Positions 8,979 to 48,386 of a DNA stretch of 61,017 nucleotides are shown here, in pieces. The translations under genes were made by a program, and so were the position numbers. The notes under the pieces are model-generated. The model saw only the letters and a program-made list of their open reading frames with translations, had not been told where the DNA came from and made no database searches. Location: the NCBI RefSeq assembly GCF_001428025.1, contig NZ_LMSC01000007.1:976714-1037730 (forward strand), in the 5' to 3' direction. This stretch comes from Phycicoccus sp. Soil748. GTDB lineage: Bacteria; Actinomycetota; Actinomycetes; Actinomycetales; Dermatophilaceae. Positions within the stretch are counted from its first letter, which is position 1. Each line of letters opens with the position of its first letter.

Positions 8979-9004
8979 GTTCGCGCCGGTGAAATGGCCG
9001 GGTT
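8979..9004 (-). promoter_or_regulatory. Island operator upstream of the MFS gene at 7473-8915
   Basis: On the minus strand the core is CCCGGCCATTTCACCGGCG followed by CGAAC. It fits CCCGG-N8-CCGG-SGYGARC and lies 63 bp before the ATG. Confidence 0.75.
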
Positions 9005-9112
9005 ACGGGGCCCGGGCACGAAGCGCTCCTCCTGCCGCGTGAGCTGTCCTTGATGCGGACTGGCTCGCCTGAGCTGGCAGTGCGGACTGCTGACGTGGCG
9101 CGCGCCCGGTGA

Positions 9113-9805
9113 CTAGGGGGCCAGCATCCAGTCGATGGCTTGCTCGACGTGGATTGCGGTCGTGTCGTACAGCGGCACGGAGGCGTCGCCCGCTTCGACG
9201 AGCAGACCGATTTCGGTACAGCCGAGAATGATGCCTTCGGCGCCGCGCTGGGCCAGGTGGTCCATCACTTCGCGGTACCTGTCGCGTGAGGAGTCGAGGA
9301 CGACGTCTTGGCACAGTTCGTCGTAGATGATCCGGTGGACGTCGGCGCGTTCGGCGTCGTCGGGGGTGATGACGTCGAGACCTTGGTCGCGGAGGCGTCC
9401 GATGTAGAAGTCCTGCTCCATCGTGAACGCGGTCGCCAGGAGCGCGACCGTATGAAGCCCGTCGGCGCGAATGCGCGCCGCTGTGGCGTCGGCGATGTGT
9501 AGGAGGGGGATGTTCGTGGCTGCCTGAAGCTGGTCGGCGACCTTGTGCATGGTGTTGGTTGCGAGGATGAGTCCTTGCGCGCCGGCGCGTTCAAGTTCTT
9601 GGGCGGCGTCGACGAGCACTGTCGTGGTGCCGTCCCAGTTGCCGTCGTGCTGCATCGCGGCGACCGGTGCGAAGTCGACACTGTGGACCAGGAGGCGGGC
9701 TGAGTGCAGGCCGCCGAGCCGTACGGCGACGCCGTGGTTGAGCAGTCGGTAGTACTCGGCTGTGCTGGTCCAGCTCATTCCGCCCAGCACTCCCAGAAGT
9801 TTCAT
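9113..9805 (-). CDS. Aspartate/glutamate racemase family protein
   Basis: 230 aa from the ATG at 9803-9805 (MKLLGVLGGMSWTSTAEYY); the upstream extension has no family similarity, and GAGAGGAA precedes this ATG. Asp/Glu racemase signature: GVLGGMSW at the N terminus, the first catalytic-cysteine region reads ILATNTMHK (Thr in place of the Cys usually seen in CNTAH), and the second reads IILGCTEIGLLV with Cys. Replacement of the first cysteine is seen in RacX/YgeA-like members too, but makes full racemase activity doubtful. Downstream of the Cu-ATPase gene on the same strand. Confidence 0.8.
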   Translation of the reverse strand: MKLLGVLGGMSWTSTAEYYRLLNHGVAVRLGGLHSARLLVHSVDFAPVAAMQHDGNWDGTTTVLVDAAQELERAGAQGLILATNTMHKVADQLQAATNIPLLHIADATAARIRADGLHTVALLATAFTMEQDFYIGRLRDQGLDVITPDDAERADVHRIIYDELCQDVVLDSSRDRYREVMDHLAQRGAEGIILGCTEIGLLVEAGDASVPLYDTTAIHVEQAIDWMLAP

Positions 9806-9882
9806 GGCGTCATGTTCCTCTCGATGGTCGGGACCGGACAACGTCATCCGGTGGTTCGGTGTCTTCAGGTGCGTCTTGTCTG

Positions 9883-12800
9883 TCATTGGGCTCGGATGGT
9901 GAACGGGACGGTGATGACGTGCCCGTTCGCGACGCGGAACTGCGCCCAGGTCTGGTAGGTCCCGGCGGTGGGGAACTCGGCGTGGACGTCGAGCTCGGGG
10001 CCGAAGGTCTGCCCTGGCAGGGCGAAGACTGGGCGGCCGCGGGAGTCGGTGACCTCGGCGTGCTCGTGGGCGAATGTCTGCCCGTCTGCGCGCATGATGA
10101 CGATGTGGCCGGCGGCTGCGAGGTAGGGCTGGAGCTGGTTGATGGGTTCGCCCGTGGCGGCGTCGGTGAACGTGTAGTGAAGGTCGCTGCGTTGGCCGGG
10201 CCGGGGCTTACCTGCGAGGTCGACGCGGATGCCGTCGACGACGGCGGTACGCGACCCTTCGGACAGGGTGTCCGGGTTGGGGGCGATCCCTGCGACGGTG
10301 ATGACCTGGCGCTGGTGGATGTCGGCCATCTGGCCCTGCCGCCGGAACTCGGTGTTGATGATGAAGCGTCCTGGCGTGGGGAAGGTGACCTGGACGGCGA
10401 GCTGGCCCGGTCGTCCGGTCGGCTGAAGGTGGATGTGAGTGAAGGTGCCAAGGTCCGTCCGGGTGGCGATGAGGTGCATCCACGCCTGGTGGCTGCGGAT
10501 CAGGTCCTGCACCGGCTGGTCGGTGTGCGCGTCGAGCACGGTGACCGTTAGCTGGGTGGGGACTCCTGGCCGGGTGTTGGCGGGGAGGTCGACGCGCACA
10601 GCGACTCCGGCGTCAGCGGCGTCGACCGGGGGCACTTCGGCGGTCATCATGACGCTCATCGCGGGGCGCATTGGCATGCCGGTGCTTTGGGTCCAAGCCA
10701 GCTGGCCGTTCATCCCGTGTGCGGCGACGTCCATCCGGCTGAGGGCGGTCAAGCCTGCGCCGAGCGTGAGGGCGACGACGGCGACGCCAGCCAGGTAGGC
10801 GTACTGGCTGACACGGGCCCGCAGCGGCGGTCGCAGGATCTCGGCGACGGTGTCGGGGCGGGCGAAGCGGCGCAGCCGCAGCGCGTTGGTCAGGACGCTG
10901 ACGGAGCTCATCGCCATGGCGGCGCTGGCAAGCACGGGGTCCAGGCGCAGGTCGTGCCACCAGGACACGGCACCAGCGGCGACGGGGATGAGGAGCAGGT
11001 TGTAGCCGAACGCCCACCCAAGGCCCTGCTTCATGGTGGTGACGGTGCGCCGGGACAGGGCGATGGCGGAGACGATGCCGCGCAGGTCGCCGCCGACGAG
11101 GGTGATGTCGGAGGCTGCGATGGCAACGTCGGCGCCGGTGCCGATGGCGATGCCTACGTCGGCTGCGGACAGAGCCGCGGCGTCGTTGATCCCGTCGCCG
11201 GCCATGGCAACGACGTGACCTTGCTGCTGGAGCTCGCGGACCTTGGCGGCCTTGTCGGCCGGCAGGACTTCGGCGAGGACGTGCTCGATGCCGACCTGGC
11301 CGGCGATGGCGTTGGCGGTGGCGGCGTTGTCGCCGGTGAGCATCCACACCTGGGTGCCGAGGGCGCGCAGCTGGGCGATCGCCTGCGCGGATTCGGGCTT
11401 GACGGTGTCGGCCACGGTGAGCACACCGGCCGGCTTGGCGTCGATGGCGACGAACATCGGGGTGCGGCCGCGGGCGGCCTCATCGGTGGCGGCTCGGGTT
11501 AGGACGGTCACGTCGATGCCATGGGCATCCATCAGGGCTTGGTTGCCGACCAGCACGTGGTGACCACCGACCTTCCCGTCGATGCCGTGGCCGGGTACGG
11601 CGTCGAACGACTGCAGTGCCGGCAGCGTGAGCGCTCGGGTGGTGGCGGCGTCGACGATGGCTTCGCCGACGGGGTGCTCGCTGCCGGTCTCGGCGGCGGC
11701 GACCAGGGCCAGGACGGTGTTCTCGTCCCAGTCGCCGATGCTGGTGACGGAGGTAAGGACGGGCTTGCCGCGGGTAATGGTGCCGGTCTTGTCCAGGACG
11801 ACGGCGGTGACCCGGCGGGCGGTCTCGAGGGCGTCGCCGTTGCCGACGAGGATGCCGAGCTCGGCGGCGCGTCCGGTGCCGACCATGACTGCGGTCGGCG
11901 TTGCGAGCCCGAGGGCGCACGGGCAGGCGATGATGAGCACGGCGATAGTGCTTGTGATGGCGGTCGTCATCCCGCCGGGGCCGAACAGGGCCCATCCGGT
12001 GAACGTGGCTGCGGCGAGCAGAAGGACGATGGGCACGAACCAGGCGGAGACGCGGTCGGCAAGCTGCTGCATGGGGACCTTGGAACCTTGGGCGTCCTCG
12101 ACGAGTCGCACGATCTGGGCCAGGGCGGTGTCCTGCCCGACTGCGGTGACCTGCAGGACCATGGTGCCGGTGCGGTTGAGGGTGGCGCCGATGACCTGGT
12201 CGCCGACGGACTTGTCCACTGGCAGGCTTTCGCCAGTGAGCATGCTTTCGTCGACGGCGGATGCGCCGTCGGTGACGGTGCCGTCCACGGGCACCTTCTC
12301 ACCGGGTCGCACTCGCACGAGGTCGCCGACGACGACCTGCTCGACGGGAATGTCGACCTCGGTGCCGTCGCGCAGGACGCGGGCGGTCTTGGGGGCCAGG
12401 CCGACCAGGGCGGTGATCGCGGCGGCGGTGCGCTTCTTCGCCCGCCCCTCCATCCACCGGCCGGCCAGGACGAGGGCCAGGATGACCAGCGATGTCTCGA
12501 AGTACACGTGCAATGGCAAGCCCCACCGTTCGGCGGCGGCGGGCCACAGGGTGACGAACGCGCTGTACACGTAGGCGACACCGGTGCCCAGGGCGACGAG
12601 AGTGTTCATGTTCGTGGAGCGGTGCTTGGCGGCGGCCCACGCGGCGGCGTAGATCTCACGACCGGCCCAGAACTGGACGACGGTGGCCACAACGAGGATG
12701 GCTGGCATCAGCCAGTCCATGACGTCGAGATACAGCGGCACGTACATGAGCACCATCAGTCCCAGGCCGGTGGCGAGGGTGACCTGCCACTTGCGTTTGA

Positions 12801-13137
12801 GCGCGCTCAGGTGCGCGTCCCGGTCGTCGCGCTCCGGCTGCGTGGCGGCCGGCTTGTTCGCGTCGTCGTTCGCGTCGTGGTGGACGGTGGCGGTGTAGCC
12901 AGCCTTGGCGACCACTGCGGTCAGGTCCTCCAGTGCGATGTGCGCGGAGTTGAAGCGGACGGTGGCGACCTCCGTGGCGAGGTTGACCTGCGCGTGCACA
13001 CCTTCGAGCCGGTTCAGGGCCTTCTCCACCCGCCCGACGCAGGAGGCGCACGTCATGCCACCGATGTCCAGAGTGCAGCTGTCCAGCTGTTCGGTTCCGG
13101 TGGTGGCCTGTGCACTCGTGATGGCACTGGTGGTCAT
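9883..13137 (-). CDS. copA: Copper-type P1B ATPase with C-terminal extracytoplasmic extension (copy 1)
   Basis: 1084 aa from the ATG at 13135-13137, which has AGGAG 9 nt upstream (an earlier in-frame ATG at 13176 has no binding site). Order: HMA domain with GMTCASC at residues 27-33; membrane core; TGES; CPC in [13 protein letters not shown] (about 404); phosphorylation motif DKTGT (about 447); [16 protein letters not shown] (about 647); YN in GYNLLLIP and [10 protein letters not shown], the Cu(I)-binding residues of CopA. Unlike normal CopA (about 750-800 aa), a ninth hydrophobic segment ([20 protein letters not shown], about 776-796) and about 285 more residues follow, with [23 protein letters not shown] and FAHEHAE. 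A ninth segment would put this tail outside the cell. A near twin is at 36808-40083. Confidence 0.93.
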
Positions 13138-13196
13138 GGTGGGCTCCTGGGTCGGGCGGTACGACATGTGCTTCATGGTGGTTGAGGGGTGGCGGC

Positions 13197-13221
13197 GTCG
13201 AACCGGCGAAATGGCCGGGTT
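13197..13221 (-). promoter_or_regulatory. Island operator upstream of Cu-ATPase copy 1
   Basis: Minus strand core CCCGGCCATTTCGCCGGTT followed by CGAC; 59 bp before the chosen ATG. It lies between the ATPase and the GNAT gene, so the ATPase has its own promoter. Confidence 0.72.
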
Positions 13222-17479: not shown

Positions 17480-17713
17480 TCAGGGGGCCAGGAGGTAGCC
17501 GGCCTCGTCGACGGCGGCGGCGATGTCGGCGCGGTCAACGGGCTGGGAGGCCGTGACCGTGACGGTGCCGGAGGCCACCTCGACGGTGACGGAGTCGACG
17601 CCAGCGACGGCGGAGATCTCGGCGGTGACGGCCCGCTCGCAGTGCGAGCAGGTCATGCCGTTCACCGTGAACGTGGTCGAGCCGATGAACGTGCGGGGGG
17701 TGCTGGACAGCAT
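17480..17713 (-). CDS. copZ: Heavy-metal-associated (CopZ-like) chaperone
   Basis: 77 aa from the ATG at 17711-17713, preceded by AAGGAGTTCAG. A single HMA domain: GSTTFTVNGMTCSHCERAVT with the CxxC metal-binding pair near residues 21-24, then the betaalphabeta pattern ending in AAVDEAGYLL. CopZ proteins hand Cu(I) to CopA. A longer upstream frame exists but is Arg/Pro-rich and crosses the operator. Divergent from the first LAL regulator, with the operator 57 bp upstream. Confidence 0.9.
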   Translation of the reverse strand: MLSSTPRTFIGSTTFTVNGMTCSHCERAVTAEISAVAGVDSVTVEVASGTVTVTASQPVDRADIAAAVDEAGYLLAP

Positions 17714-17770: not shown

Positions 17771-17796
17771 GTTCACGCCGGTAAAACCGCCGGGTT
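17771..17796 (-). promoter_or_regulatory. Island operator between copZ and LAL regulator 1
   Basis: Minus strand core CCCGGCGGTTTTACCGGCG followed by TGAAC; 57 bp before the chaperone start. The LuxR-type regulator gene starts 87 bp away on the other side. Confidence 0.72.
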
Positions 17797-20637: not shown

Positions 20638-20664
20638 AACCCGGCGATTCTGCCGGGGTGAAGC
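20638..20664 (+). promoter_or_regulatory. Island operator upstream of the flavin monooxygenase gene
   Basis: Core CCCGGCGATTCTGCCGGGG followed by TGAAGC; 51 bp before the ATG at 20716. A TAGCGT lies about 15 bp further on and could be the -10 element. Confidence 0.72.
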
Positions 20665-20715: not shown

Positions 20716-21822
20716 ATGAACAACACGCCTACGGCCGGCCCGGCGCCGCTCGATGTCATTGTGGTCGGCGCCGGTCAGGCTGGCTTAGCCATCGGTCACT
20801 ACTTCGCTCAGGGTGGCCTGAGCTTCGTCCTGCTGGAGGCGGGTGGCGAGGTTGGCCATACGTGGCGGAACCGGTGGGACTCGTTGCGGCTGTTCTCTCC
20901 GGCGCAGTACGACTCGCTGCCGGGTATGCCGTTTCCTGCCCCGGCGGACAGTCACCCTTCCAAGGACGACGTGGCCGACTACCTGGCTTCCTATGCGGAA
21001 CGATTCGACCTTCCGGTGCGGTTGAACTCGCCGGTGCTGCGAACGCACCGCGAGCAGGACGGGAACTTCGTTGTAACCACGCCCTCCGGTGAGCTGCGTG
21101 CCCGGCAGGTGGTGGTGGCCACCGGCCCGTTCCAGACGCCCCGGGTGCCTGCTGCCGCGAGCGAGCTCGACCGGCAGGTGCAGCAGCTCCACAGCGCCGA
21201 CTATCGAAACCCCGGCCAGGTGCTCGGCACGCGTGTGCTTGTGGTCGGTGCTGCGAACTCCGGGCTCCAGATCGCGGACGAGCTCGCACCAACCCATACT
21301 GTGAGCGTCTCCGTCGGGTCCAAGCCGCTCGCCCTGCCGCATCGCATCGCGGGCAGGGACCTGTTCTTCTGGCTGACGAAGGTCGGCTTCTTCAAGGTGG
21401 CGGCGACCAGTCGCCTGGCTCGGCGGTTGCGCGCCCGCGGTGACCTGGTCATCGGCACCCGCAGCGCCGACCTGCGCAGGGCCGGTATCGGGTTCCGGAC
21501 CCGTCTGACCGGGTTCACCGGGGACGTCGCACAGTTCGCGGACGGCACCACAATGCGCGTGGATGCTGTCGTGTGGGCTACCGGGTTCGCGTCGGACTAC
21601 TCGTGGCTGGAGGTGCCCGGCGTCATCGTTGACCGGCAGGTCCGCCACCAGGACGGCGTGACCCAGGTTCCGGGGTTGTACTTCTTGGGGTTGCCGTGGC
21701 AGACGAGCCGGGGGTCGGCGTTGCTCGGGTTCGTCGGCGCTGACGCGGCCGCCCTGTCTGCGCGCATTGTCGGGGCTGTCCGGGCGGCGCAGGAGGCGCC
21801 GGCGGTCCACACGGCGTCCTGA
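20716..21822 (+). CDS. FAD-dependent monooxygenase (CzcO/YUC-like flavoprotein)
   Basis: 368 aa, with AAGGAGCCACC before the ATG. Two dinucleotide folds: FAD site DVIVVGAGQAGLAIGHYF (about residues 13-30) and NADP site VLVVGAANSGLQIADEL (about 173-189), plus the ATGF motif WATGFASDYSWL near 278-289. The TWRNRWDSLRLFSPAQYDSLPG block is typical of the CzcO-like group. The name CzcO comes from association with cation-diffusion genes; a true role in metal resistance is unproven. Probable reaction is NADPH-dependent oxygenation of a small lipophilic molecule. Preceded by the island operator. Confidence 0.88.
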   Translation: MNNTPTAGPAPLDVIVVGAGQAGLAIGHYFAQGGLSFVLLEAGGEVGHTWRNRWDSLRLFSPAQYDSLPGMPFPAPADSHPSKDDVADYLASYAERFDLPVRLNSPVLRTHREQDGNFVVTTPSGELRARQVVVATGPFQTPRVPAAASELDRQVQQLHSADYRNPGQVLGTRVLVVGAANSGLQIADELAPTHTVSVSVGSKPLALPHRIAGRDLFFWLTKVGFFKVAATSRLARRLRARGDLVIGTRSADLRRAGIGFRTRLTGFTGDVAQFADGTTMRVDAVVWATGFASDYSWLEVPGVIVDRQVRHQDGVTQVPGLYFLGLPWQTSRGSALLGFVGADAAALSARIVGAVRAAQEAPAVHTAS

Positions 21823-31462: not shown

Positions 31463-31489
31463 AACCCGGTCACTTGACCGGGGCGAAGC
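31463..31489 (+). promoter_or_regulatory. Island operator upstream of the HD-domain gene
   Basis: Core CCCGGTCACTTGACCGGGG followed by CGAAGC, 77 bp before the ATG at 31567. This is the most symmetrical copy: CCGGTCA, two bases, then TGACCGG. Confidence 0.8.
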
Positions 31490-31566
31490 ACCCGCCGGTG
31501 GGGTCACTCTGAGGTGCACCCGCCGGAACACCCGCAGCAGGACATGCTGTGAGCAAGGAGACCCCG

Positions 31567-32444: not shown

Positions 32445-32636
32445 TCACCACGTCATCACGCTGCCGCCGGTGGCCAGCACCAGGACCCGCATCGTGGGGG
32501 TCTCAACGTCACGGGCAGCTCGAACCTGCTGCCGGTCCCGCGGCTGGGAGAAGTCGCCGGCGTAGTACCCGTTGTGCGGGTGAACCCAGCGCTCCGACGT
32601 GCCCGATTCCTCTTCCACACTCATCCATCCAGCCAT
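32445..32636 (-). CDS. Doubtful small protein, 63 aa
   Basis: Minus-strand frame starting MAGWMSVEEESGTSERW at 32636 and ending TMRVLVLATGGSVMTW. Composition is protein-like (acidic start, aromatic middle), but the ribosome binding site (GGGGATGTG) is poor and no family is recognised. It may be a gene or a relic. Confidence 0.3.
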   Translation of the reverse strand: MAGWMSVEEESGTSERWVHPHNGYYAGDFSQPRDRQQVRAARDVETPTMRVLVLATGGSVMTW

Positions 32637-34559: not shown

Positions 34560-34586
34560 AATCCCGGCCGATGTGCCGGGGTGAGT
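34560..34586 (+). promoter_or_regulatory. Island operator, far upstream of the second MFS gene
   Basis: Core CCCGGCCGATGTGCCGGGG followed by TGAGT. Spacing is the standard 8 nt, but the distance to the next start (34878) is about 290 bp, much longer than the 51-84 bp seen elsewhere. Confidence 0.6.
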
Positions 34587-34741: not shown

Positions 34742-34877
34742 TGCTCTTCACCGCGCACTCCCTTGACGTGCCGGGTCACCCGAACCCTTCGACAGCGCCA
34801 GGACAGACCCAGGACAGGGCTCCCAAGAACGCTTGCCTCACAGCCACCGTCGGCTGTCTGACACGAAAGAGGCCCCC

Positions 34878-36807: not shown

Positions 36808-39800
36808 ATGACCCCCCAGACAACCACCGCCGCCGACCGCACCCTGGGCGCCGACGAAGCAACCCAGAGCGAGACATGCACCCTGCAAATCGGTGGCATG
36901 ACCTGCGCATCATGCGTGCGACGCATCGAGAAAGCTCTCACCAAGCTCGACGGCGTGACCTCAGCCCAAGTGAACCTCGCCACCGAGGTCGCCTCCGTCA
37001 CCTTCGCGTCGAACCTCGTTGGCGTGGAGCAGCTCACCGCCGTCGTCAGCCGTGCCGGCTACACCGCCACACCAACGCATGCAGCGACCCACGATCCGAC
37101 CACGCCGGTCGACACCACCGCCGCCGACGACAGCAGAGACCGAGAGCTCCGCCAGCTCAAACGCCGCTGGCAAGTCGCCCTCACCACCGGGCTAGGACTG
37201 ATGGTCCTGATGTACGTCCCGCTCTACATCGACACCATGGACTGGCTCATGCCCGTCATCTTCCTCATCACGACCGTGGTCCAGTTCTGGGCTGGCCGGA
37301 GCATCTACGCCTCAGCGTGGGCAGCGGCCAAGCACCGCAGCACAAACATGACCACCCTCGTGGCACTCGGGACCGGCGTCGCCTACGGCTACAGCACCTT
37401 CGTCACGCTCTGGCCGGGCCTGGCCGAGAGTTGGGGCCTGCCCCTGCACGTCTACTACGAGACGTCGTTGGTCATCATCGCCCTGGTCCTGGCCGGCAAG
37501 TGGATGGAGGCAAAAGCCAAACGGGCGACCGCAGCGGCCGTCAACGCCCTCCTCAGCCTTGCACCCCCAACCGCTCGAGTCGTCCGGGACGGCCACGAGC
37601 TCGACGTCCCACTCGAACAGGTCGTCGTCGGCGACACGGTCCGCATCCGGCCGGGAGAAAAGGTTCCCGTGGACGCGGTTGTCACCACTGGCAGCACCAC
37701 CGTGGACGAAAGCATGCTCACCGGCGAAAGTCTCCCGGTCGACAAGGAGCCCGGTGACACTGTCATCGGAGGCACCCTGAACACCACAGGTAGCGTGCTG
37801 GTACGCACCACCGCCGTCGGTGCCGACACCGCCCTGGCCCAGATTGTGCGGCTCGTCGAGGACGCCCAAGGCGCCAAAGTGCCCATGCAACGACTGGCCG
37901 ACGCCGTCTCCTCGTTCTTCGTGCCCGCCGTCATCGTCGCGGCCGCCCTCACCTTCGCAGGATGGGCGCTCTTCGGACCCGGCCAGGAAAACCTGACCAT
38001 GGCAATCACCACCACCATCGCCGTACTCATCATCGCCTGCCCCTGCGCGCTCGGCCTGGCCACTCCGACCGCCGTCATGGTCGGCACCGGCCGCGCCGCC
38101 GAACTCGGCATCCTCATCTCCAACGGCGAGGCACTCGAGCAGGCCAAGCGCGTCACCGCCGTGGTACTCGACAAGACCGGGACCATCACCCGCGGACGTC
38201 CAGCCCTGACCACGTTCACCGCCACCAACGGCTGGGACGACAACCAGCTGCTGTCCCTGGTCGCCGAGGCAGAGGCGGGCAGCGAGCACCCAGTTGCGCA
38301 GGCCATCGTGGCGCACGCCCGCGAGCTCGGCCTGCCCCTAGCCCAGCCGCAGTCGTTCGAGGCCGTCCCCGGACACGGCCTGCAGGCCGTCGTGGACGGA
38401 TTCACGCTCGGCATCGGCAACAAGGCGCTCATGGACCGGACGGGAGTCGACATCTCGACGCTCGAACCGGCTGCCGCCCGCGCAGCTGCCGCCGGTCAGA
38501 CACCGATGTACGTCGCCGTCAATGGCGAAGCCGCCGGCCTGGTCGCAGTCGCCGACACCGTCAAACCTGAGTCCGCGAAAGCTGTCGACCAGCTGCATGC
38601 GCTCGGGCTGGAGGTGTGGATGATCACCGGCGACAACACCCTCACGGCCCGAGCGGTCGCTGAGCAGGTCGGAATCACCCACGTCTTGGCCGACGTCCTC
38701 CCGGCGGACAAGGACGCGGCGGTCGCCCAGCTGCAGGCGCAGGGTCACGTCGTGGCCATGGCTGGCGACGGAATCAACGACGCAGCCGCGCTGGCCCGCT
38801 CCGACCTCGGCATCGCCATCGGCACAGGCGCCGACGTGGCCATCGCCGCCTCCGACATCACCCTCATGGGTGGAGATCTGCGCGGCATCGTCGCAGCGAT
38901 CGCCCTGTCGCGGCGCACCGTGAGCACCATGAAGCAGGGCTTGGTGTGGGCGTTCGGCTACAACGTCCTGCTCGTGCCGGTCGCGGCCGGGGCGCTCTAC
39001 GCCTTCGACGGGCTCCTGCTCGACCCGGTGCTGGCCTCAGCCGCGATGGTGATGAGCTCAATCAGCGTGCTGACGAACGCGCTGCGACTTCGGCGCTTCC
39101 GCCGACCGGCGTCGGCGCAGGAGATTCTGCACCCACCGCTGCGGTCGCGTGTGGGCCAGTACGCCTACCTCGCTGCCGTGGCAGTTCTGGCCTTGGCCAT
39201 CGGCAGCGCCCTGACGGGGGTGAGCCGGATGGACTTCGCCAAGCGCGGGATGAACGGCCTGCTCGCGTGGAACCAGTCCACGGGGATGCCGATGCGGCCG
39301 GCCATGAGCACCATGATGACCGCCGACGTCCCGCCCACCGAGGCGGCGCAGGCCGGCCTTGATGTGCGACTGTCCGTGCCAGCCAGTACACGACCCGGCG
39401 TCCCGACCCGGGTGACTGCCACGGCCGTCCAACACGGCACCGGCGACCCGGTGACCGACCTGACCTTGACCCACCAGGCGTGGATGCACCTGATCGCCGT
39501 GCGGGAAGACCTCGCCACCTTCGGCCACGTGCACCCGCAGCCCACCGGGCACCCTGGCGAGGTGGCCGTCGAGATGACCTTCCCGACACCGGGCCGGTAC
39601 ATCGTCAACATCGAGTTCCGCCGCCGCGGGCAAATGAGCGACGTGCACTTCCGCCAAGTCGTTACCGTGCCGGGGGTGCCGACCAGTCCTCGCGAGCCCG
39701 TCACCGTGAGCAGCCGTTCCGTGAACGTCCGGGGTACCAACGTCCAGCTCCTGGGCGAGGCGCGTGTGGACGGCAGCAGCGACCTGCACTTCCGGTTCTC

Positions 39801-40083
39801 CGACGCCAACACAGGCGCGCCGGTGACCGACCTGCAGCCCTACCTCGCCGCCGCGGGACACATCGTGGTCATCAACGCCGACGGTTCCTCGTTCGCCCAC
39901 GAGCACGCCGAAGTCGAGGACCAGCGCGGACGCCCTATGTTCGCCACACCAGGTCAGACCTTCGGGCCCTCGCTGAACGTTCACGCCACCTTCCCGGCCC
40001 CCGGCACCTATCGGCTCTGGGGTCAGTTCCGCCTCGCGAGCGGCGTCGTGATCACAGCACCGTTCACCGTGCAGGCCAAGTAG
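36808..40083 (+). CDS. copA: Copper-type P1B ATPase with C-terminal extracytoplasmic extension (copy 2)
   Basis: 1091 aa, ATG with CCAGGAGAAGTA upstream. Layout as in copy 1: HMA GMTCASC at residues 30-36; CPC in [13 protein letters not shown] (about 411); DKTGT (about 454); [16 protein letters not shown] (about 652); YN in GYNVLLVP and [13 protein letters not shown], the Cu(I) residues. Then a ninth hydrophobic segment ([20 protein letters not shown], about 783-802) and about 285 residues with [26 protein letters not shown] and FAHEHAE. The whole protein is very similar to copy 1, so the fusion predates the duplication. It lies in a copZ-copA pair without a nearby operator. A terminator follows at 40089-40132. 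Confidence 0.93.
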
Positions 40084-40088
40084 GCACA

Positions 40089-40132
40089 CCGCCCCGCCCG
40101 ACTCGCGTCCCTCACCGCGTCGGGCTGGGCGG
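40089..40132 (+). terminator. Hairpin after the second Cu-ATPase gene
   Basis: CCGCCCCGCCCGAC (40089-40102) pairs with GTCGGGCTGGGCGG (40119-40132) with one or two mismatches in the middle; it starts 6 bp after the stop codon. Confidence 0.6.
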
Positions 40133-40283
40133 ACCGGACCCCACCCATGCGACGAGCACCCCAGTCCGGCCGGAACGACCCTCGTGAGCCGACCCGCCCC
40201 CCACCAGAGACCGCTCCGCAGGCCGTTTGCCGTCAGCGCCCCCATGACGGCACCATGGGCACGACACGAGGTTGGGGTAATCG

Positions 40284-43200
40284 TTGCAGACGTTGCGTTT
40301 TAGGCTGCTGGGCTCGACCGACATGCTCGTCGACGACGAGTCCGTCAGCCTGCCCGGCGCAGCCGAACGTGCCCTGCTCGTCCTGCTGCTGCTGTCCCCG
40401 GGGCGCATCGTTCCCGCGACCACCCTCATCGACCGGTTGTGGTCCGAGTCCGCGCTCCCGGCCGACCCCGTCAACGCGTTACAGATCCGGGTGTCCAAAC
40501 TGCGCCGTGCCCTGCGGGACGTCGACCCGGACCTCATAACCCGCGAACGCACCGGCTACCGCATCAACGTGGACCCCTCCGCCATCGACGCCGAAGCGTT
40601 CGTCACCCAGCTGCGGCAGGCCCGAACGGCGGCCGCTCACGGCGACTACACGGCCCAGCACCTCCAGGCGTACGACGACGCCCTGGCCCTGTGGCGCGGG
40701 CAGGCCCTGGCCGACTTCGCCGAAGAGCACTGGGCTCTTGCCGAAGCTGCCCGACTGACCGAGCTGCGGCTCGCCGCCCTGTCCGAACGGGCCCAGGTCG
40801 CGTTGGGTCTGGGACGGCACCGGGAGGTAGTCACCGACCTGGAACCGGTCGTCGCGGCCGACCCCACCCTGGAGTCGCTGGCCGGGCAGCTGATGACGGC
40901 CCTGTACCGCAGCGGCCGCCAGGCCGACGCGCTCGAGGTGTACACCCGAACCAGGACCATGCTGGACGAGAACCTCGGACTTGAACCGTCCACCGCGCTG
41001 CGGTCCCTGCATGAGCGGGTCCTTCGCCAAGACCCGGCACTGGGTGGGGACGGGGACAGTGCCCTCCTCGCTCCAGCGCCCGTCATGGCCCCCACCCGCC
41101 AACGCCGCGACAGAGCACCCCAAGCACCAGGAACCCTGGCATTAACCCCCAAGCCGCTCATCGGCCGCGACGACCAGCTCAGCTCCCTCGATGCCCTGCT
41201 CACCGACCAGCGGCTGGTGTCCCTCGTCGGACCGGGCGGCGCCGGGAAGACCACTCTCGCCTTGGCCGCTGCCGCTGCCGCTGCCCACCAGTTCTCCCAC
41301 GGCGCCGTAGGCGTGCGGCTGGCACCAGTCAGCGACCCGGGCCAGGTCCCCGTCGCCTTCGCGGACGCGCTCGGCGTGCCGCTGGACGGAGGAGCCGCCG
41401 ACCGGGACATCCAGGACCGCCTCACCCGGTTCCTGACCAGTCGAAACCTGCTGCTCCTGGTCGACAACTGCGAACACGTCGTGGACGCAGCCGCCAGCGT
41501 CATCGAGGACATCCTGGCCCGCTGCCCCGACGTCACCGTCATCACCACCAGCCGCGAAGCACTCGCTGTCCCGGCCGAGCTGCAAGTCCTCGTCGGCCCG
41601 CTCGACACCGCACCGGAGAACGCCGGCCCCGACCAGGTCCTGACCTACCCCGCCAACCAGCTGTTCACCGAACGGGCCCGGATGGTGCGACCCGGCATGG
41701 TCCTCGACGAGCAAGACGCCCTCGCCGTCGCGCGAATCACCCGAGCGCTCGACGGGCTCCCGTTGGCTGTTGAGCTGGCCGCCGCCCGTATCGCGTCCAT
41801 GTCACCCACCGAGATAGCGGAACGTCTCAACCACCGGTTCGCCCTGCTCACCAGTGGTTCACGCACCGCCGAAACGCGCCAGCAGACGCTGCGCGCCACG
41901 GTCGACTGGAGCTACGCACTCCTCGAGCCCGGCGAGCAGGCGGTCTTCGACGGACTCTCGGTCTTCCGCGGCGGTTGGACCCTGGCCGCGGCCGAAGCCG
42001 TCCTGTCCGACGAAGGAATGGCCTACGGCGCCGTCCTGGACACCCTCGGCCGGCTGGTCGAACGGTCGCTGGTCGTCGTCGACCCAGGCCGCACCACCCG
42101 GTACCGGATGCTGGAGACGCTGCGCGAGTATGCCGCCGAACGACTCGAGGCCCGCAACGACGACATGACCCGGCGGCAACGGCACGCGGACTACTTCCGC
42201 CGGTTCACCCAAGACGCCGAGATGGACCTGCGCGGTCACGGCCAACGCGACGCACTGGTCCGTCTACGAGCCGAACAGCCCAACATCCGGGCCGCACTGG
42301 CGTGGCTCAGCTCGCCCGCCGGCGACATCGACGCGGCCCTGTCCATGGCAGGCGCGCTCGGCCTGTTCTGGCACTTCGGGCGTCACCTCGAAGGCCGCGA
42401 AGCCTTAGCTCGGCTCCTCGCACCCGGGACCGGGAGTGAGCAGGCCAAGGCCCACGCGCTGCAGGCGGTGTCCATCGTCGAACGCCCGCGCGCGTGCCTG
42501 GTCCATCCCAGCCCCCGCTGTGCCGAGACAGCCGAACAGAGCCTGACCCTGTTCGAAGACCTCGGCGACGCCTCACGTGCCGCCCTGTCGCAGGTGCTCC
42601 TGGCGGTGGAAGGAGTCACCGGCGCCCACCCCGAACGCAGCGGACAGCTTCTCCGGCACGCGCAGCACCAGTTCAGTGCCGACGACGACCCGTGGGGGCA
42701 GGCCGTCATCGGGTTCGTCCGGATGGAGACCGCCCTCAAGGCCGGCCACCAGGACGTCGCCATTCCCACCGGCAGGGCAGCAGCAGCCGCGTTCCGCGAG
42801 CTCGACGACCCCTGGGGGCTGTCCGCCATCCTGTACCACCTCGGATGGGGCCTGCGGCAGTTCGGCCGGTACCCCGAAGCCGCACGCACCCTCGAGGAAG
42901 CGATCGACGTGGCCACCAGCGCCGGCCTGTACAACACCGTCCAATGGGCGCTGGCCGACCTCGGCGTGACCCACCTGCACCAAGGACACCCGGGGCAGGC
43001 ACGGGACATGTTTGCCCGCGCCAGCGCCGCGTCCGAGCACATCGGCGACGGCGCCGGCACCGTCCTCGCCACCTACGGGCACGCGCTGATGGCTCAAGTC
43101 GACGGTGACTGGGCGCAGGCACGCCTCCAAAACACGACCGCCCTGGAAGGCTTCCGCACCCTCGGGACGCCCGTTCCCCAAGGGCTGGCACTCGCGGGCC

Positions 43201-43490
43201 TGGCGCGCTGCGACGAAGCCGACGGTGACCTCGACGCCGCCCAGGACGGCTACCGCGGAGTGCTGGACCTCAGCCACCAAGTGGGCGAGCCGTCCTTGAC
43301 CGCCACAGCCCTGGAAGGGTTGGCGCGGGTCGCATCGGCACTCGGCGACACACACAAGACCCAAACCCTGCTGACGCAGGCAGCCGACGTGCGGGAGACA
43401 CGCAGCAGGCCGGCGCCGCCGCACGAGCAGCGAGACCTCGCGCCCTTCCTGCAAGCTAGTGCGACGTCCGCGGCAGACAGGGCTCCGTAG
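40284..43490 (+). CDS. SARP/AfsR-type regulator: winged helix, BTAD, NB-ARC and TPR
   Basis: 1068 aa, TTG start at 40284. N-terminal OmpR-type winged helix (LRFRLLGSTDMLVDDESVSL to about residue 95, with RIVPATTLIDRLW), bacterial transcriptional activation domain (about 100-250), then an NB-ARC ATPase with P-loop VGPGGAGKTTLA at about 312-323, LLLVDNCEHV as Walker B, and GLPLAVELAAARI. The C-terminal half is TPR-like. Proteins of this kind activate secondary-metabolite or stress operons. It has no island operator upstream, unlike the genes around it, which would fit a regulator at the top of the hierarchy or one with separate targets. Confidence 0.9.
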   Translation: MQTLRFRLLGSTDMLVDDESVSLPGAAERALLVLLLLSPGRIVPATTLIDRLWSESALPADPVNALQIRVSKLRRALRDVDPDLITRERTGYRINVDPSAIDAEAFVTQLRQARTAAAHGDYTAQHLQAYDDALALWRGQALADFAEEHWALAEAARLTELRLAALSERAQVALGLGRHREVVTDLEPVVAADPTLESLAGQLMTALYRSGRQADALEVYTRTRTMLDENLGLEPSTALRSLHERVLRQDPALGGDGDSALLAPAPVMAPTRQRRDRAPQAPGTLALTPKPLIGRDDQLSSLDALLTDQRLVSLVGPGGAGKTTLALAAAAAAAHQFSHGAVGVRLAPVSDPGQVPVAFADALGVPLDGGAADRDIQDRLTRFLTSRNLLLLVDNCEHVVDAAASVIEDILARCPDVTVITTSREALAVPAELQVLVGPLDTAPENAGPDQVLTYPANQLFTERARMVRPGMVLDEQDALAVARITRALDGLPLAVELAAARIASMSPTEIAERLNHRFALLTSGSRTAETRQQTLRATVDWSYALLEPGEQAVFDGLSVFRGGWTLAAAEAVLSDEGMAYGAVLDTLGRLVERSLVVVDPGRTTRYRMLETLREYAAERLEARNDDMTRRQRHADYFRRFTQDAEMDLRGHGQRDALVRLRAEQPNIRAALAWLSSPAGDIDAALSMAGALGLFWHFGRHLEGREALARLLAPGTGSEQAKAHALQAVSIVERPRACLVHPSPRCAETAEQSLTLFEDLGDASRAALSQVLLAVEGVTGAHPERSGQLLRHAQHQFSADDDPWGQAVIGFVRMETALKAGHQDVAIPTGRAAAAAFRELDDPWGLSAILYHLGWGLRQFGRYPEAARTLEEAIDVATSAGLYNTVQWALADLGVTHLHQGHPGQARDMFARASAASEHIGDGAGTVLATYGHALMAQVDGDWAQARLQNTTALEGFRTLGTPVPQGLALAGLARCDEADGDLDAAQDGYRGVLDLSHQVGEPSLTATALEGLARVASALGDTHKTQTLLTQAADVRETRSRPAPPHEQRDLAPFLQASATSAADRAP

Positions 43491-43557: not shown

Positions 43558-44190
43558 TCACACGGTGGGCTGCGGGTCGTACTGGATGTCCCTGCGCACC
43601 GTCCTGGCGCGGTCAACGCCGGCGAGCCGAGCCACGAGGTGCAGTGCCATGTCGATGCCGGCACTGACACCGGCGCTGGTGATGACGTCACCGTCGTCAA
43701 CGAACCTTTCCATGGGCTGCATCTGGATGGTGCGGTCCAGCGACGCCAGAAGTTCGAGGGACTCCCAGTGGGTGGTGGCTGGCCGACCGGTGAGCAGTCC
43801 AGCGGCGGCATACACGAGGGCACCGGTGCACACGCTGGTCATCAACGGGACGGACTCACGCTGCGCGCGAACCCAGGCCAGATGGTCAGGGTCTCGCATC
43901 AGGACCCGCGTGCCTTGCCCACCGGGGTGAATCAAGACCTGCATGTGCGGCGCGTCGGGGAACGAGTGGTGCGCGTCGAGGACTAGTCCCTTGGCGGCTC
44001 GGACCGGCGCGCCGTCACGGGACAAGAATGACACCGCCCAGCCGTCGTCCGGGTGGTTCAGGGTCCAGTTCGCCAGGACTTCCCACGGGCCGAAGGCATC
44101 GAGCTCTTCGACGCCGTCGAACAGCAGGATGCCGATGTGCCGCACGGCGGGTAGGTGGGCCGCGAGGGCAGAGGCGGTGGTGGAGGTCAT
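43558..44190 (-). CDS. DJ-1/PfpI family protein, isonitrile-hydratase-like
   Basis: 210 aa from the ATG at 44188-44190, with AAGGACCCAACC upstream. Pattern IGILLFDGVEELDAFGPWEVL with the conserved Glu, VLIHPGGQGTRVLM, and nucleophile elbow MTSVCTGALVYAAAGLL followed by ATTHW. This order matches the cyclohexyl-isocyanide (isonitrile) hydratase subgroup, in which the Cys attacks the isonitrile carbon. Whether it uses isonitriles or is a general glyoxalase/chaperone cannot be settled here. Divergent from LAL regulator 2 across an operator copy. Confidence 0.87.
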   Translation of the reverse strand: MTSTTASALAAHLPAVRHIGILLFDGVEELDAFGPWEVLANWTLNHPDDGWAVSFLSRDGAPVRAAKGLVLDAHHSFPDAPHMQVLIHPGGQGTRVLMRDPDHLAWVRAQRESVPLMTSVCTGALVYAAAGLLTGRPATTHWESLELLASLDRTIQMQPMERFVDDGDVITSAGVSAGIDMALHLVARLAGVDRARTVRRDIQYDPQPTV

Positions 44191-44254
44191 GGTTGGGTCC
44201 TTCAGGCTGGCGGGACGTTCTTGCGGATGGTTCACGATGCAGACATCGCGTGGG

Positions 44255-44281
44255 GTATCGCCCCGGTCAAAGTGCCGGGAT
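44255..44281 (-). promoter_or_regulatory. Island operator between the DJ-1 gene and LAL regulator 2
   Basis: Minus strand core CCCGGCACTTTGACCGGGG followed by CGATAC; 64 bp before the DJ-1 start and 36 bp before the GTG of the LAL gene, so it could also act on the regulator's own promoter. Confidence 0.75.
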
Positions 44282-44317
44282 GGTCCTCCCGACAAGCTGA
44301 GTGGGCGGTAGCGTCGG

Positions 44318-47071
44318 GTGGTGCTACACGGCCGTGAGCCCGAACGCGCGCATCTTGCCGCCCTCGTGGAACAGGCACGCGCGGGGAACGGTGCCGTCCT
44401 CGTCGTGCTGGGAGAGCCCGGTGTAGGCAAGACGGCCCTGCTGCGTGACCTGACCAATCCCCAGCAACCGTCGGGGGAGCGTGGGGACCTTCGAGTGCTG
44501 CGCACGGCCGGGGTCGAGTCCGAGTCGCCCCTGCCGTACGCCGCCCTGCACCGCCTGCTGCGTCCCGTCGCGGATTTCGACCCGTTGCCCGCTCCTCAGG
44601 CGCGGGCGCTGCGGGTCGCGTTCGGTCTCGAGGAGGGACCCACCGTCGAACCGTTCCTCGTGGGCGTCGCCACCCTGTCGGTGCTGACCAACGCAGCCGA
44701 ACCGGACCATCCGCTGTTGTGCGTGGTCGACGACGCGCACTGGCTCGACTCCGCGTCCGCGGACGCCCTGCTGTTCGCGGCCCGTCAGCTGTCTGCCGAC
44801 CCCGTTGCCATGGTCTTCGCCGCACGAACCGGCGAAACCGCTGGACGAGAGTTCACAGCGCCTGGGCTGCCCGTCCTGGAGATCCGCGGCCTCGGCGACA
44901 GGGCGGCCCGCCAGCTCCTCGACGAACGCGGCGGCGACGCGCTCCCTGGTGAAGTCGCGCAGCGCCTCGTCCGCGACACCGGCGGGAATCCCCTCGCCCT
45001 GCTGGAGCTGCCCACGGAGCTCAGCCCAGCGCAGCTGCAGGGCCAGGTGCCGCTACCCCGGCAGCTGGCGTTGACCGCCGGCGTCGAGCGCGCGTTCCTC
45101 GACCGGTGCCGCCGCCTGCCGCAACCGGTGCAGACACTGCTGCTGGTCGCCGCAGCCGACGCCACAGGCCGTGCAGCGACCGTCCGGCAGGCGGCCGCCA
45201 CTCTCGGCGTCGACGGGACCGCCTGGGCGGACGCCGAGCGGTCGACCCTGCTCAGCGTCTCCAGCGACACCGTGACCGTACGACACCCGCTGGTCCGTTC
45301 CGCTGTGTACCAAGCAGCCACCAGCTTCGAACAACGGCAGGTGCACCGCGCTCTCGCACAGGCGGTCGACGCGGACGACCCCGACCGGGCCACGTGGCAC
45401 CGCGCCGCAGCAGCCGACGGACCCGACGCCGCCGTCGCCGACGCCCTGGCCGACGTGGCGGTCCGGGCCGAACAGCGCGGCGGCCACGGTGCAGCAGCCG
45501 ACGCGTTCGAACGCTCAGCCGCCCTGACCGCAAAGGAACCGGACCGAGCCACCCGCCTGTTCGGCGCCGCCCGTACCGCATGGGCGGCCGGGCAGACGAT
45601 GCGCGCCCGCGCCCTCGCGGCGGCCGCCCGGGAACATGCGGTCGACCCGCTGCAGCGAGCCGACATCGACCGGCTCCGCGCCCGCATCGAGGTCAACGTC
45701 GGATCCGCCGTCGACAGCCACCGCATCTTCACCGTCGCGGCGCGCACCATCGCTCACCACGACACCGGTCGCGCCCTGGAGATGGCGTGCGCGGCCGCCC
45801 TGAACCGCGCATACGGCGCCGACAGCGGAGCCACCCTCGGTGCCGATGTCCTCACCGAGATGCTGGCACCAACCGTCACGGACACGCCACGCACCACCTG
45901 CCTGCGGCTGCTGCTGCGGACCCTGACCGCGACTGGAGACCAGGACTGGGCGAAAGTCATCCCCGCCCTCGAGCAATCACTCGAGGCTGGGCGCGAGGTG
46001 GAAGACCTGGACGTGATGGGCAATCTCGGCAACACCGCCTTGCACCTCGGGCACGACGAAGGCGCTCGCTTCTACTACTCGGCCATGGAGGCCGCCGCGC
46101 GCGAAGCCGGTGCCGGCATGGTCGTCATCTACGCCCTCGAACGGCTCATGTTCGCCCATCTGCCCACCGGACCATGGACGGCGGTTCGCAGCTCCGCCGA
46201 CGAAGCGCTCACCTTGGCACGCAGTGTCGGCCAGCCCACCCTGACTGCGGCACCGCTGGCCTGCCTGGCGTTGCTGGCGGCCCTGACCGGCAGCGACGAC
46301 GTCGACGACCGCCTTGCCGAGGTCGAGGACGTCGCCACCCGCCACCCGCTCGGCATCATGACCGGGCCGACCCACGACGTCACCCGGTGGGCCAAGGGCG
46401 CACGTGCCGCCGCCCAAGGCGACGCTGGAGGTGCACTGCACCACCTGTCGGGGATGCGGGTCCCGGCGCTGCATCGGTTCGCGTTCATCGACCGGCTCGA
46501 AAGTGCCGTCCGCGCCGGCGACACCAACCAAGCCCTGATCTGGGTCGAAGAGCTCGTCCCGTTCGCCACGGGCACCGGCCAGGCGTGGGCGGTCGGGGCC
46601 ACCAACCTTGGACGGGCCCTGACCGCGACCGACCCTGCCGACGCCGCGTCATCGTTCGAGCAAGCTGTGGGGCACTACCGCAGGGCTAACCGCCCATACG
46701 ACCTGGCACGAACCCAGCTGGCATACGGGGAGTTCCTACGCCGCACCAACCGCCGGGTCGACGCGCGCACCCACCTGCGGCCGGCACTGGAGACCTTCAC
46801 CGAGCTCGGCGCCAGCCCGCTGGTGGAGCGCGCCACCCAGGAGCTGCGCGCCTCGGGCGAGACTGCGCGCAAACGTGACCCGTCCACGCTGCTGGACCTG
46901 ACCCCGATGGAGCTCAAGGTCGCTCAGCTGGTCAGCACCGGCCTGTCGAACAAGGACGTCGCAGCCCAGTGCTGGGTGTCACCGCGCACGGTGGCGTTCC
47001 ACCTGCGCAACGTGTTCACCAAGGTCGGAGTCAGTTCCCGCACCGAGCTCGCCCAGCTCGACTTCAACTGA
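44318..47071 (+). CDS. LuxR-family ATP-binding regulator (LAL type), copy 2
   Basis: 917 aa, GTG start at 44318 (or 44321). Same build as the LAL at 17884: P-loop GEPGVGKTAL at about residues 28-37, VVDDAHWLDSASADALLF, long TPR-like middle, and LuxR helix-turn-helix LTPMELKVAQLVSTGLSNKD with SPRTVAFHLRNVFTKVGVSS at the C terminus. The recognition helices of the two proteins are nearly the same (SPRTVxFHLRNVFTKxGV), so they may bind the same operator. No clear ribosome binding site, as in copy 1. Confidence 0.9.
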   Translation: MVLHGREPERAHLAALVEQARAGNGAVLVVLGEPGVGKTALLRDLTNPQQPSGERGDLRVLRTAGVESESPLPYAALHRLLRPVADFDPLPAPQARALRVAFGLEEGPTVEPFLVGVATLSVLTNAAEPDHPLLCVVDDAHWLDSASADALLFAARQLSADPVAMVFAARTGETAGREFTAPGLPVLEIRGLGDRAARQLLDERGGDALPGEVAQRLVRDTGGNPLALLELPTELSPAQLQGQVPLPRQLALTAGVERAFLDRCRRLPQPVQTLLLVAAADATGRAATVRQAAATLGVDGTAWADAERSTLLSVSSDTVTVRHPLVRSAVYQAATSFEQRQVHRALAQAVDADDPDRATWHRAAAADGPDAAVADALADVAVRAEQRGGHGAAADAFERSAALTAKEPDRATRLFGAARTAWAAGQTMRARALAAAAREHAVDPLQRADIDRLRARIEVNVGSAVDSHRIFTVAARTIAHHDTGRALEMACAAALNRAYGADSGATLGADVLTEMLAPTVTDTPRTTCLRLLLRTLTATGDQDWAKVIPALEQSLEAGREVEDLDVMGNLGNTALHLGHDEGARFYYSAMEAAAREAGAGMVVIYALERLMFAHLPTGPWTAVRSSADEALTLARSVGQPTLTAAPLACLALLAALTGSDDVDDRLAEVEDVATRHPLGIMTGPTHDVTRWAKGARAAAQGDAGGALHHLSGMRVPALHRFAFIDRLESAVRAGDTNQALIWVEELVPFATGTGQAWAVGATNLGRALTATDPADAASSFEQAVGHYRRANRPYDLARTQLAYGEFLRRTNRRVDARTHLRPALETFTELGASPLVERATQELRASGETARKRDPSTLLDLTPMELKVAQLVSTGLSNKDVAAQCWVSPRTVAFHLRNVFTKVGVSSRTELAQLDFN

Positions 47072-47263
47072 ACGACCCTGGCACACAGCCGCGATGGGCA
47101 TCAGCCGGCTGAAGCACCGGCGAGTGGACGCAACGAACTGACGAAGGCAACTCGGGAGTCTCCCTGGTCGAACCGGCACCCGTGCTGACAATTGCCCCAG
47201 CCCAACAGTCACAACGGACTTCGGGTGTTGCCCAGGCTCGGGGAGCAGATCATCCTCGAGGGC

Positions 47264-48208
47264 ATGAACACCTACGACGTCCTCATCGTCGGTGGCGGCG
47301 CCGCCGGTCTGTCCGCGGCCCTCGTCCTGAGCCGCGCCCGCCGCACCGTCGTAGTCGTTGACTCCGGCGCCCCACGCAACGCCCCTGCCGCCCACATGCA
47401 CGGATACCTCTCCCGCGACGGCATGCCGCCCTCAGACCTGCTGAAGACGGGCCGCGCCGAGGTCACCGGGTACGGCGGAACTATCATCGCCGGCCGCGTG
47501 GACGAACTGGTTCGCGACGACGGAGGCGGTTTCACCGCCGTGCTCGGCGACGGTGACCAGATCCACGCTCGACGGGTCCTCGTCACTACCGGGTTGCGCG
47601 ACGAGCTGCCCGACGTTCCTGGTCTGCGGGACCGGTGGGCCAACGACGTCCTGCACTGCCCCTACTGCCACGGGTGGGAGGTCCGCGACCGCGCCGCAGG
47701 GGTCATCTGAAACGGCCCAGAGACCACCCGGTACGTCCAGATCGTCCGCCAGTGGATCCGCGACCTTGTCCTGTTCGCACCCAACGGGGCGCTCACCGCG
47801 CAAGACCGCGCCGAGCTGGCTGCCCGCGCCATCAGCCTCGTCGAAGGCCCCATCGACCGCCTCGTCGTCGAGGACGACGTCTTGTCCGGTGTCGCCATGG
47901 CTGACGGGTCGCTCATTCCCAGGCAGGTCGTGTTCGTCCCGCCTCACCTTGTCCCGCACAGCGAGCTGCTTGCCAGCCTTGGTGCCCAGCTCGACCAGGA
48001 CGGTTGGGTGACCACCGCGATGGCCGGAGCCACCACCGTTCCAGGCGTCTGGGTCGCCGGGAACGTCGCCAACCCGCGCGCACAGGTCATCACCGCAGCA
48101 GGCGAAGGGTCCGCGGCGGCCATCGCCATCAACGCCGACCTCGTCGACGAAGACGTCCGGGCGGCCGTCGACCAGGTCGGCGAGGGACTGGTGACCAACC
48201 CCGCCTGA
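47264..48208 (+). pseudogene. Thioredoxin-reductase-like flavoprotein gene with an internal TGA
   Basis: Reads MNTYDVLIVGGGAAGLSAAL (FAD site) and CPYCHGWEVRDRAAGVI, then TGA at 47708-47710 (codon 149), then in the same frame NGPETTRYVQIVRQWIRDLV to the end of a complete C-terminal domain (AGATTVPGVWVAGNVANPRA, typical of this family). Without the stop it would be 314 aa, a normal length. A GGA or similar codon probably became TGA. The CPYC pair lies about 15 residues before the stop. Two separate half-proteins could in principle still be made, since an ATG and GTG follow, but loss of function is more likely. Confidence 0.75.
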
Positions 48209-48360
48209 CCCACACGGCCAACCTCGACGGCCACCCGCCGCGTGCGGCCTCACAAAGCGCTGGGACCCAGGCAGGCGCCGCCGGACGCAGCGTCTCCGCA
48301 TACCTGCTCGCCCCGCCGGGCGCGTGACTCCTTGCGCCTCGGGGGCATCTGCCATTGCAC

Positions 48361-48386
48361 ACCCCGGCCATTTGACCGGCGCGAGC
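48361..48386 (+). promoter_or_regulatory. Island operator upstream of the third MFS gene
   Basis: Core CCCGGCCATTTGACCGGCG followed by CGAGC, 84 bp before the ATG at 48471. Very close to the copy before the first MFS gene. Confidence 0.78.

Follow-up and report, generated by a model that had tools for sequence, protein, structure and literature searches.

How the cargo of a genomic island is controlled, and whether the island brings the means of that control with it, is the question raised by a 61,017-nucleotide stretch of Phycicoccus sp. Soil748 (GCF_001428025.1, contig NZ_LMSC01000007.1, positions 976,714 to 1,037,730 of the forward strand; this whole stretch is referred to below as the window), in which nine transcription units for pumps, copper export and enzymes are each preceded by a copy of the same short palindromic sequence. 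We consider it highly probable, on the evidence of sequence comparison, that this motif is the operator of an activator of the LAL (large ATP-binding LuxR) type which travels together with its target genes. As the regulator we propose, with high confidence, a LAL protein of the type encoded in the window at 44318–47071 (plus strand; 917 aa; AAA_16 and GerE domains; recognition helix SPRTVAFHLRN), the proposed activator; a second LAL gene lies at 17884–20604 (plus strand; 906 aa; AAA_16 and GerE domains; helix SPRTVDFHLRN). The predicted LAL operator is shared by the nine cargo units and by two further stations in the same genome.

The nine copies reported in the initial annotation are real: all were located in the window sequence, and all nine point toward the next gene, as had been claimed. 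The pattern CCCGG-N8-CCGG occurs 17 times over both strands (12 distinct places) against an expectation of 4.5 (sd 2.4), and none of 100 shuffled windows reached 17 copies. A weight matrix built from 34 sites, all from other genomes, recovered exactly the nine window sites at a reporting threshold of 8, with scores of 19.4–41.9 and no other match of at least 8, which bears out a single operator family; in 20 simulated 61-kb sequences (first-order Markov) the matrix produced three matches of at least 8 in total, the best of them scoring 10.7. An additional orphan copy suggested at 7404 scores −10.6 and is not a site. The reported lack of copies in the chromosomal flank stands, with no match of at least 8 in the rest of the window, in the 19.3 kb upstream (L054) or in L055. 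Derived from 55 distinct sites, the consensus reads AWC-CCGG-CCATNTGA-CCGG-SGYGA, the operator being an asymmetric element of the form AWC-CCGG-N8-CCGG-SGYGA; the sites behind the consensus and the promoter analysis were picked once the LAL linkage was known, and hence serve to characterise the motif, not as a test of that linkage. The full SGYGAR suffix is present in seven of the nine window operators, those at 44278 and 13218 carrying GGCGAT and TTCGAC, respectively.

Absence elsewhere had been proposed as a check on the motif, and the site is indeed rare outside the window in the genome, among genus-mates and in the order. The 3.97-Mb genome (12 contigs) holds 12 matches to CCCGGN8CCGGSGYGAR, and one to the reversed control: seven are in the window, three at C7:781.9–783.5k, one at C5:293411 and one on C9, the last being unrecognised by the weight matrix. 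The regulon reaches beyond the island, to two further stations at C7:782k and C5:293k. At the former, about 200 kb off the island (L052, G000:C7:774000-793000, 5300–11300), three operators precede genes of the HD, hydrolase and MFS families, and an ADH gene is close by; a frame at 1–1993 of this locus starts with LLTTKLFIPRP, a beginning that resembles that of MalT-type LALs. Ten genus-mates contain one to four matches to the same pattern each (23 in total), and of these 23 loci one has a matrix match of 27.8 (G006), four have matches of 8.4–13.4 and the remainder have none of at least 8. The strict form CCCGGNCANNTGACCGGSGYGA is found in six copies here and in one in G023, and only there among 198 genomes of the order. 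The G006 locus (L056, G006:C6:675000-693000) is a related cluster comprising a Cu-ATPase (89%), DJ-1, MFS and PadR genes and a single operator; the latter is an orphan operator, no LAL of the 44318 type having been found among the candidates scored in that genome. Strict-pattern matches in Arthrobacter (L097, L111) were rejected: there a longer palindrome, ATCACCCCGG..CCGGGGTGAT, is followed by T runs and appears terminator-like by eye, and such palindromes are a source of false matches in strict-pattern scans. Seven Aeromonas loci, in which the strict match and an ABC_16347-like gene lie about 1 kb apart, were taken for one conserved place.

The identity of the regulator was approached from both ends. 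The strict DNA pattern scan of the genome collection yielded 66 loci, or 71 with five fetched regions, and when the island proteins were compared with these 71 loci by tblastn, homologues of LAL 44318 appeared in 16, of PadR in only two and of the SARP protein (40284) in none, so that neither PadR nor SARP was retained as a candidate regulator. One set of linkage tests chose loci by the LAL protein, without reference to the motif. In a class sample of 393 genomes, the suffix-bearing motif lies within 1.5 kb in five of five loci whose LAL is at least 46% identical (three from this genome, one with a partial LAL) and in none of 27 loci with LALs of at most 44% identity; six further LAL matches came without a locus and are outside these counts. 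Among 294 genomes of the family to which G583 (Nocardioides sp. Root1257) belongs, 30 have a LAL match at E 1e-150; here a matrix match above 30 accompanies 18 of 19 LAL loci with the VAF helix, including nine of ten in newly reached genomes, these counts resting on 30 of 34 matches. In both the class and the G583-family searches, scoring covered the best two or three candidates of each genome. The families of G232 (three genomes) and G245 (eight genomes), when searched, yielded no additional cases; G245 itself has no LAL match at E 1e-150, its match in the class sample being partial. The genome under study encodes three such LALs at E 1e-30, and in each case an operator lies no more than about 100 bp away.

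Starting from the motif instead, we considered 36 genomes of the 66-locus scan (actinobacteria and L062), the LAL search leaving out Aeromonas, other Proteobacteria, Bacteroidetes, Verrucomicrobia and others. A LAL of at least 52% identity is encoded in 18 of the 36, and an AWC-flanked site, the flank being absent from the DNA pattern by which the genomes had been chosen, is present in 17 of these 18 versus four of the 18 without such a LAL (Fisher 2e-5), among which the best LAL reaches 49% identity (G596). Across 41 genomes scanned for AWC sites there are 50, and none with the reversed pattern; 45 of the 50 belong to genomes with a LAL above 50% identity (20 genomes, one of them siteless), 41 of these 45 being located within 10 kb of the LAL gene, 22 within 150 bp and four on other contigs. 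Viewed from the regulator, 16 of 23 LAL genes have an AWC site within 150 bp. This linkage of site and LAL across genomes supports the earlier suggestion that LAL proteins are the likely regulators.

The arrangement of the sites relative to promoters is equally regular. In 54 of 55 sites, a −10-like hexamer, xAnnnT, begins 38 or 39 bases past the first C of CCGG (39 sites have offset 38 and 15 have offset 39; the next best offset is found in two, with about 1.2 expected), and the palindrome, as in class-II operators, thus precedes a −10-like element by a short and constant distance. If the T of the hexamer is set at −7, the predicted transcription starts would place the palindrome centre at −42.5 or −43.5 and SGYGA over the −35 region, where it is far from TTGACA. 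A centre near −42.5 over the −35 region is the class-II activator position, as for LuxR, and the operator would sit at just this position; because the −35 region is far from TTGACA, the layout fits activator dependence. The suffix SGYGARC noted in the initial annotation is accordingly genuine but more than a tail of the palindrome, as it occupies the −35 place with the −10-like hexamer at fixed spacing, and the palindromic form is, as had been supposed, that expected for a dimeric regulator.

The mechanism that we propose is as follows. A dimer of the 44318-type LAL (helix SPRTVAFHLRN) would bind the 16-bp palindrome CCGGYCANNTGACCGG, which appears to be fused to a weak promoter with SGYGA at −35 and the xAnnnT hexamer at fixed spacing. 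Centred near −42.5, the bound dimer would recruit RNA polymerase as a class-II activator and might thereby switch on the efflux pumps, copper export, the DJ-1 hydratase-like enzyme, the hydrolase, the HD protein and the flavin monooxygenase. The sister LAL 17884 (helix SPRTVDFHLRN) probably serves the dialect CCGGCGATT..., at least at the flavin monooxygenase. What the sequences show directly is the sites, with their enrichment, linkage to LAL genes, promoter spacing and coherent targets; binding itself, activation as opposed to repression, dependence on both ATP and a ligand, and the inducing signal are inferred.

The sites also precede the same kinds of genes in other loci. Gene calls in the window were based on codon-position GC and identifications on Pfam and NCBIfam, and the list of nine targets given previously proved correct. 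In a survey of 57 distinct sites, nine in the window and 48 elsewhere (the latter including five of this genome and G006, and five sites without an open reading frame in the locus), 40 of the 43 readable non-window targets belong to island families, so that the same gene families do recur behind the site, as the initial annotation had asked of it: hydrolase in 14 cases, DJ-1 in seven, MFS of the 48324 type in six, MFS of the 7473 type in five, HD in four, Cu-ATPase in two, and flavin monooxygenase and ADH in one each. That the cargo as a whole forms a single regulon is nevertheless overstated: nine units share the operator, but in 15 other island upstream regions, including those of the second Cu-ATPase (36808), SARP, ADH, ABC and other genes, the best consensus match has 8–10 mismatches, so that several island genes are without a site immediately in front of them. 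Some of these may be transcribed from an operator farther upstream.

Five of the nine operators lie on the minus strand. The operator AACCCGGCCATTTCACCGGCGCGAA (8980–9004; matrix score 31.4) precedes a DHA2-like MFS pump (7473–8915, minus; below NCBIfam cut-offs), the start codon of which is 86 bases past the first C of the operator CCGG. Operator 13218 (13197–13221; 19.8), with the degenerate suffix TTCGAC, precedes the copper P-type ATPase gene (9883–13176, minus), whose 89% identical counterpart in genus-mate G006 bears ATCCCGGCTAATTCACCGGGGCGAA at an equal distance. Operator 17793, AACCCGGCGGTTTTACCGGCGTGAA (17772–17796; 29.4), is situated between its target, a CopZ-like copper chaperone gene (17480–17713, minus; HMA domain), and the divergent LAL gene 17884. 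The highest score, 41.9, belongs to operator 31352, ATCCCGGCCATGTGACCGGGGCGAG (31331–31355), before an alpha/beta-hydrolase gene (29888–31261, minus). Operator 44278, ATCCCGGCACTTTGACCGGGGCGAT (44257–44281; 31.0), is about 40 bases from the divergent LAL gene 44318 and is directed not at that gene but at the minus-strand gene for a DJ-1/PfpI, isonitrile-hydratase-like protein (43558–44193). On the plus strand, operator 20641, AACCCGGCGATTCTGCCGGGGTGAA (20638–20662; 23.8), of the second dialect described below, precedes an ArsO-like flavin monooxygenase gene (20716–21822, plus; below the NCBIfam cut-off), a homologue of which (58%) in G573 (L174) is likewise behind a site. Operator 31466, AACCCGGTCACTTGACCGGGGCGAA (31463–31487; 26.5), precedes the gene for an HD-domain protein that is distantly cyanamide-hydratase-like (31549–32331, plus), and operator 48364, ACCCCGGCCATTTGACCGGCGCGAG (48361–48385; 32.4), an MFS pump gene (48324–50009, plus; likely start about 48471). 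Operator 34564, ATCCCGGCCGATGTGCCGGGGTGAG (34561–34585; 19.4), precedes another MFS pump gene (34833–36338, plus) at the unusual distance of 314 bases from its likely start (about 34878). It is identical in 23 of 25 bases to an operator in L088 that precedes a different gene, which suggests that its original target may have been replaced. A short frame beginning with MTLL is found behind this window operator, and the gene of the L088 operator also begins with MTLL, so that the window may contain a remnant or a swapped target.

The two window LALs belong to two sister groups with different recognition helices, SPRTVAFHLRN (44318 type) and SPRTVDFHLRN (17884 type), other LALs having helices such as S.HTVEWHLRK or SPRTIEAHLRN. 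The variant CYGGYGATTN3CCGG, a pattern defined post hoc, is present in nine of 13 VDF loci (the set including one SRRTIDF helix, L194), in none of 23 VAF loci and in none of 26 loci of other LALs (Fisher 8e-6, also post hoc). One member of the VAF set (L141) comprises only the N-terminal part of its LAL, the helix lying outside the sequence. The flavin monooxygenase site 20641, just past the LAL 17884 gene, is of this dialect, and LAL 17884 probably has this second operator dialect. Because two VAF loci (L208, L210) carry CCGGCGGTTTTGCCGG, the copZ site 17793 is intermediate and not confidently assignable to one LAL; the two LAL circuits probably overlap in the island. Alignment to VraR locates the Ala/Asp residue of the helix at the place of a DNA-contacting lysine in NarL-type proteins. 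We tentatively suggest, with less than even confidence, that the two sister LALs read two dialects set largely by this position and form two partly insulated portable sub-circuits that control a single set of detoxification genes. If true, dialect reading would amount to a readable DNA-recognition code for LAL proteins.

Several observations weigh against assigning the operator to a LAL activator. Four window sites (13218, 34564, 20641 and 31466) score only 19–27, which overlaps the presumed chance strict-pattern matches (10.1–26.4 in 18 genomes of a 257-billion-base collection), although such scores are not expected by chance within one 61-kb stretch. All 18 LAL-less genomes hold a strict-pattern match, by construction of the sample; we take these matches as chance because their flanks differ and their matrix scores are lower than the 33.3–43.5 of LAL-bearing genomes, the latter being in the training set. 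The strict match of G023, in the same order (L123), scores 26.4, with an opposite-strand matrix match of 14.7. In G006, the site scoring 27.8 precedes a Cu-ATPase gene, yet no LAL was found in the genome at E 1e-60 with 24 of 34 candidates scored; L195, the shortest of the VAF loci, has a VAF LAL and no site in 4.8 kb. Neither window LAL gene has a forward-oriented site upstream, so LAL autoactivation is not evident. Finally, the p-values are only indicative because related sequences are not independent, and linkage cannot separate an activator from a repressor.

It is this last point that leaves room for a LAL acting as a repressor or mixed regulator at the operator. In favour of this, the operator and the proposed −35 region overlap, the LAL gene itself starts about 40 bp away, and SCO6993, a LAL, is described in the excerpt of PMC9628970 as a repressor binding short inverted repeats. 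We nevertheless regard repression as quite unlikely, given the activator-dependent layout, with SGYGA at −35, far from TTGACA, and a −10-like hexamer at fixed spacing, and given the predicted centre near −42.5, the class-II position, as for LuxR. Still less probable is an operator belonging to a NarL/DosR/OsdR-like response regulator encoded elsewhere, with the LALs as mere neighbours. Such a reading would explain the site without a LAL in G006, and the LAL helix-turn-helix (HTH) is itself of the GerE/NarL type; moreover, there is a resemblance between the central 12 bp of the operator, GGYCANNTGRCC, and those of the OsdR box, AGGGCCGATCGGCCCT, as given in the available part of PMC5069765. For its GGYC..GRCC core, the OsdR/DevR box was the first candidate considered, and it was ruled out by flanks and distribution: the flanks are CC..GG here versus AGGG..CCCT in the OsdR box, a high-scoring site is present in one of ten genus-mates and the strict form in only one other of the 198 order genomes. 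In addition, one and the same LAL subtype accompanies the site from genome to genome, and the two LAL helix types go with different operator cores. That the motif merely reflects high GC and arose by chance, or else is a repeat element, retains a next to negligible probability: GC content is 69%, and CCCGGN8CCGG alone is expected 4.5 times, but the simulated maximum of 10.7 falls far below the window scores of 19.4–41.9, the sites are positioned and oriented before genes, the reversed pattern gave 0 versus 50, and the targets are conserved.

With a LAL activator as the preferred reading, the control circuit of the pumps, copper export and detoxifying enzymes was probably brought along by the island, because its nine units share a site that recurs in other actinobacteria beside one LAL subtype. 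The combination of hydratase-like enzymes, copper export and three pumps suggests a defence against small reactive or copper-binding compounds. The nearest solved structure to the DJ-1 protein is isonitrile hydratase InhA (1.4e-39), the alignment spanning the cysteine of the VCTG motif, and the HD protein matches the cyanamide hydratase family at 2e-13, below the curated cut-off, and 6dka at 4e-7; isonitriles are one candidate for the compounds defended against, although the probability for them in particular is low. DJ-1 genes are found behind an operator in seven other loci. Elsewhere in the island, a second Cu-ATPase gene and that of an AfsR/SARP-like regulator (BTAD, 1068 aa) occupy 36808–43490 without an operator. 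Possible integration sites are a tRNA-Ser(cga) gene inside the island (32485–32582) and, on the left, a cluster of Gly, Cys and Val tRNA genes (6756–7026), and the right side (50864–56928; GC 62–67%, below that of the cargo) encodes a tyrosine integrase (54969–55883) and two NERD-domain frames. The island seems to import regulators together with operators into a genus whose ten other searched genomes largely lack the operator. The LAL subtype, in turn, gains a sharp, genome-searchable operator, a defined promoter layout and a list of conserved targets, making its regulon predictable and its ligand testable.

Among the literature matches listed, no title or abstract opening describes this operator, subscription literature being mostly uncovered. 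The proposed system is reminiscent of LuxR and the lux box in pairing a palindrome with a LuxR HTH dimer, here with predicted binding and a predicted centre near −42.5 over the −35 region, the position of the lux box, but differs in its 16-bp CCGG-based palindrome and in that no autoinducer-binding domain is among the Pfam matches of the LALs. PimR (SARP-LAL) and MilO are, likewise, cluster-linked actinobacterial regulators. According to the accessible parts of the respective reports, PimR uses heptameric direct repeats (PMC5930380) and MilO three TGTCN3CGGT direct repeats (PMC11784345), whereas the operator here is an inverted repeat; membership in a SARP regulon was rejected on this ground and because none of the 71 loci has a linked SARP homologue. 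OsdR/DevR, which in the available part of PMC5069765 combine a GerE-type HTH with a palindromic box of GGYC..GRCC core, share both features with the present system, but the consensus here differs from AGGGCCGATCGGCCCT in flanks and core, the island targets are not the universal-stress/nitroreductase set, and no receiver domain is among the Pfam matches of the linked LAL. Closest in protein architecture are the LAL/MalT-type regulators, in which an N-terminal AAA ATPase is joined to a C-terminal LuxR HTH, as in the window LALs of 917 and 906 aa. The excerpt of PMC9628970 gives MalT boxes as GGA[TG]GA and describes SCO6993, a LAL of 606 aa, as binding short inverted repeats for which a consensus could not be predicted. 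The conserved element here is a CCGG-N8-CCGG palindrome and not GGA[TG]GA, which argues against membership in a MalT regulon. In contrast to both MalT and SCO6993, a single conserved palindrome recurs here across many units and genomes.

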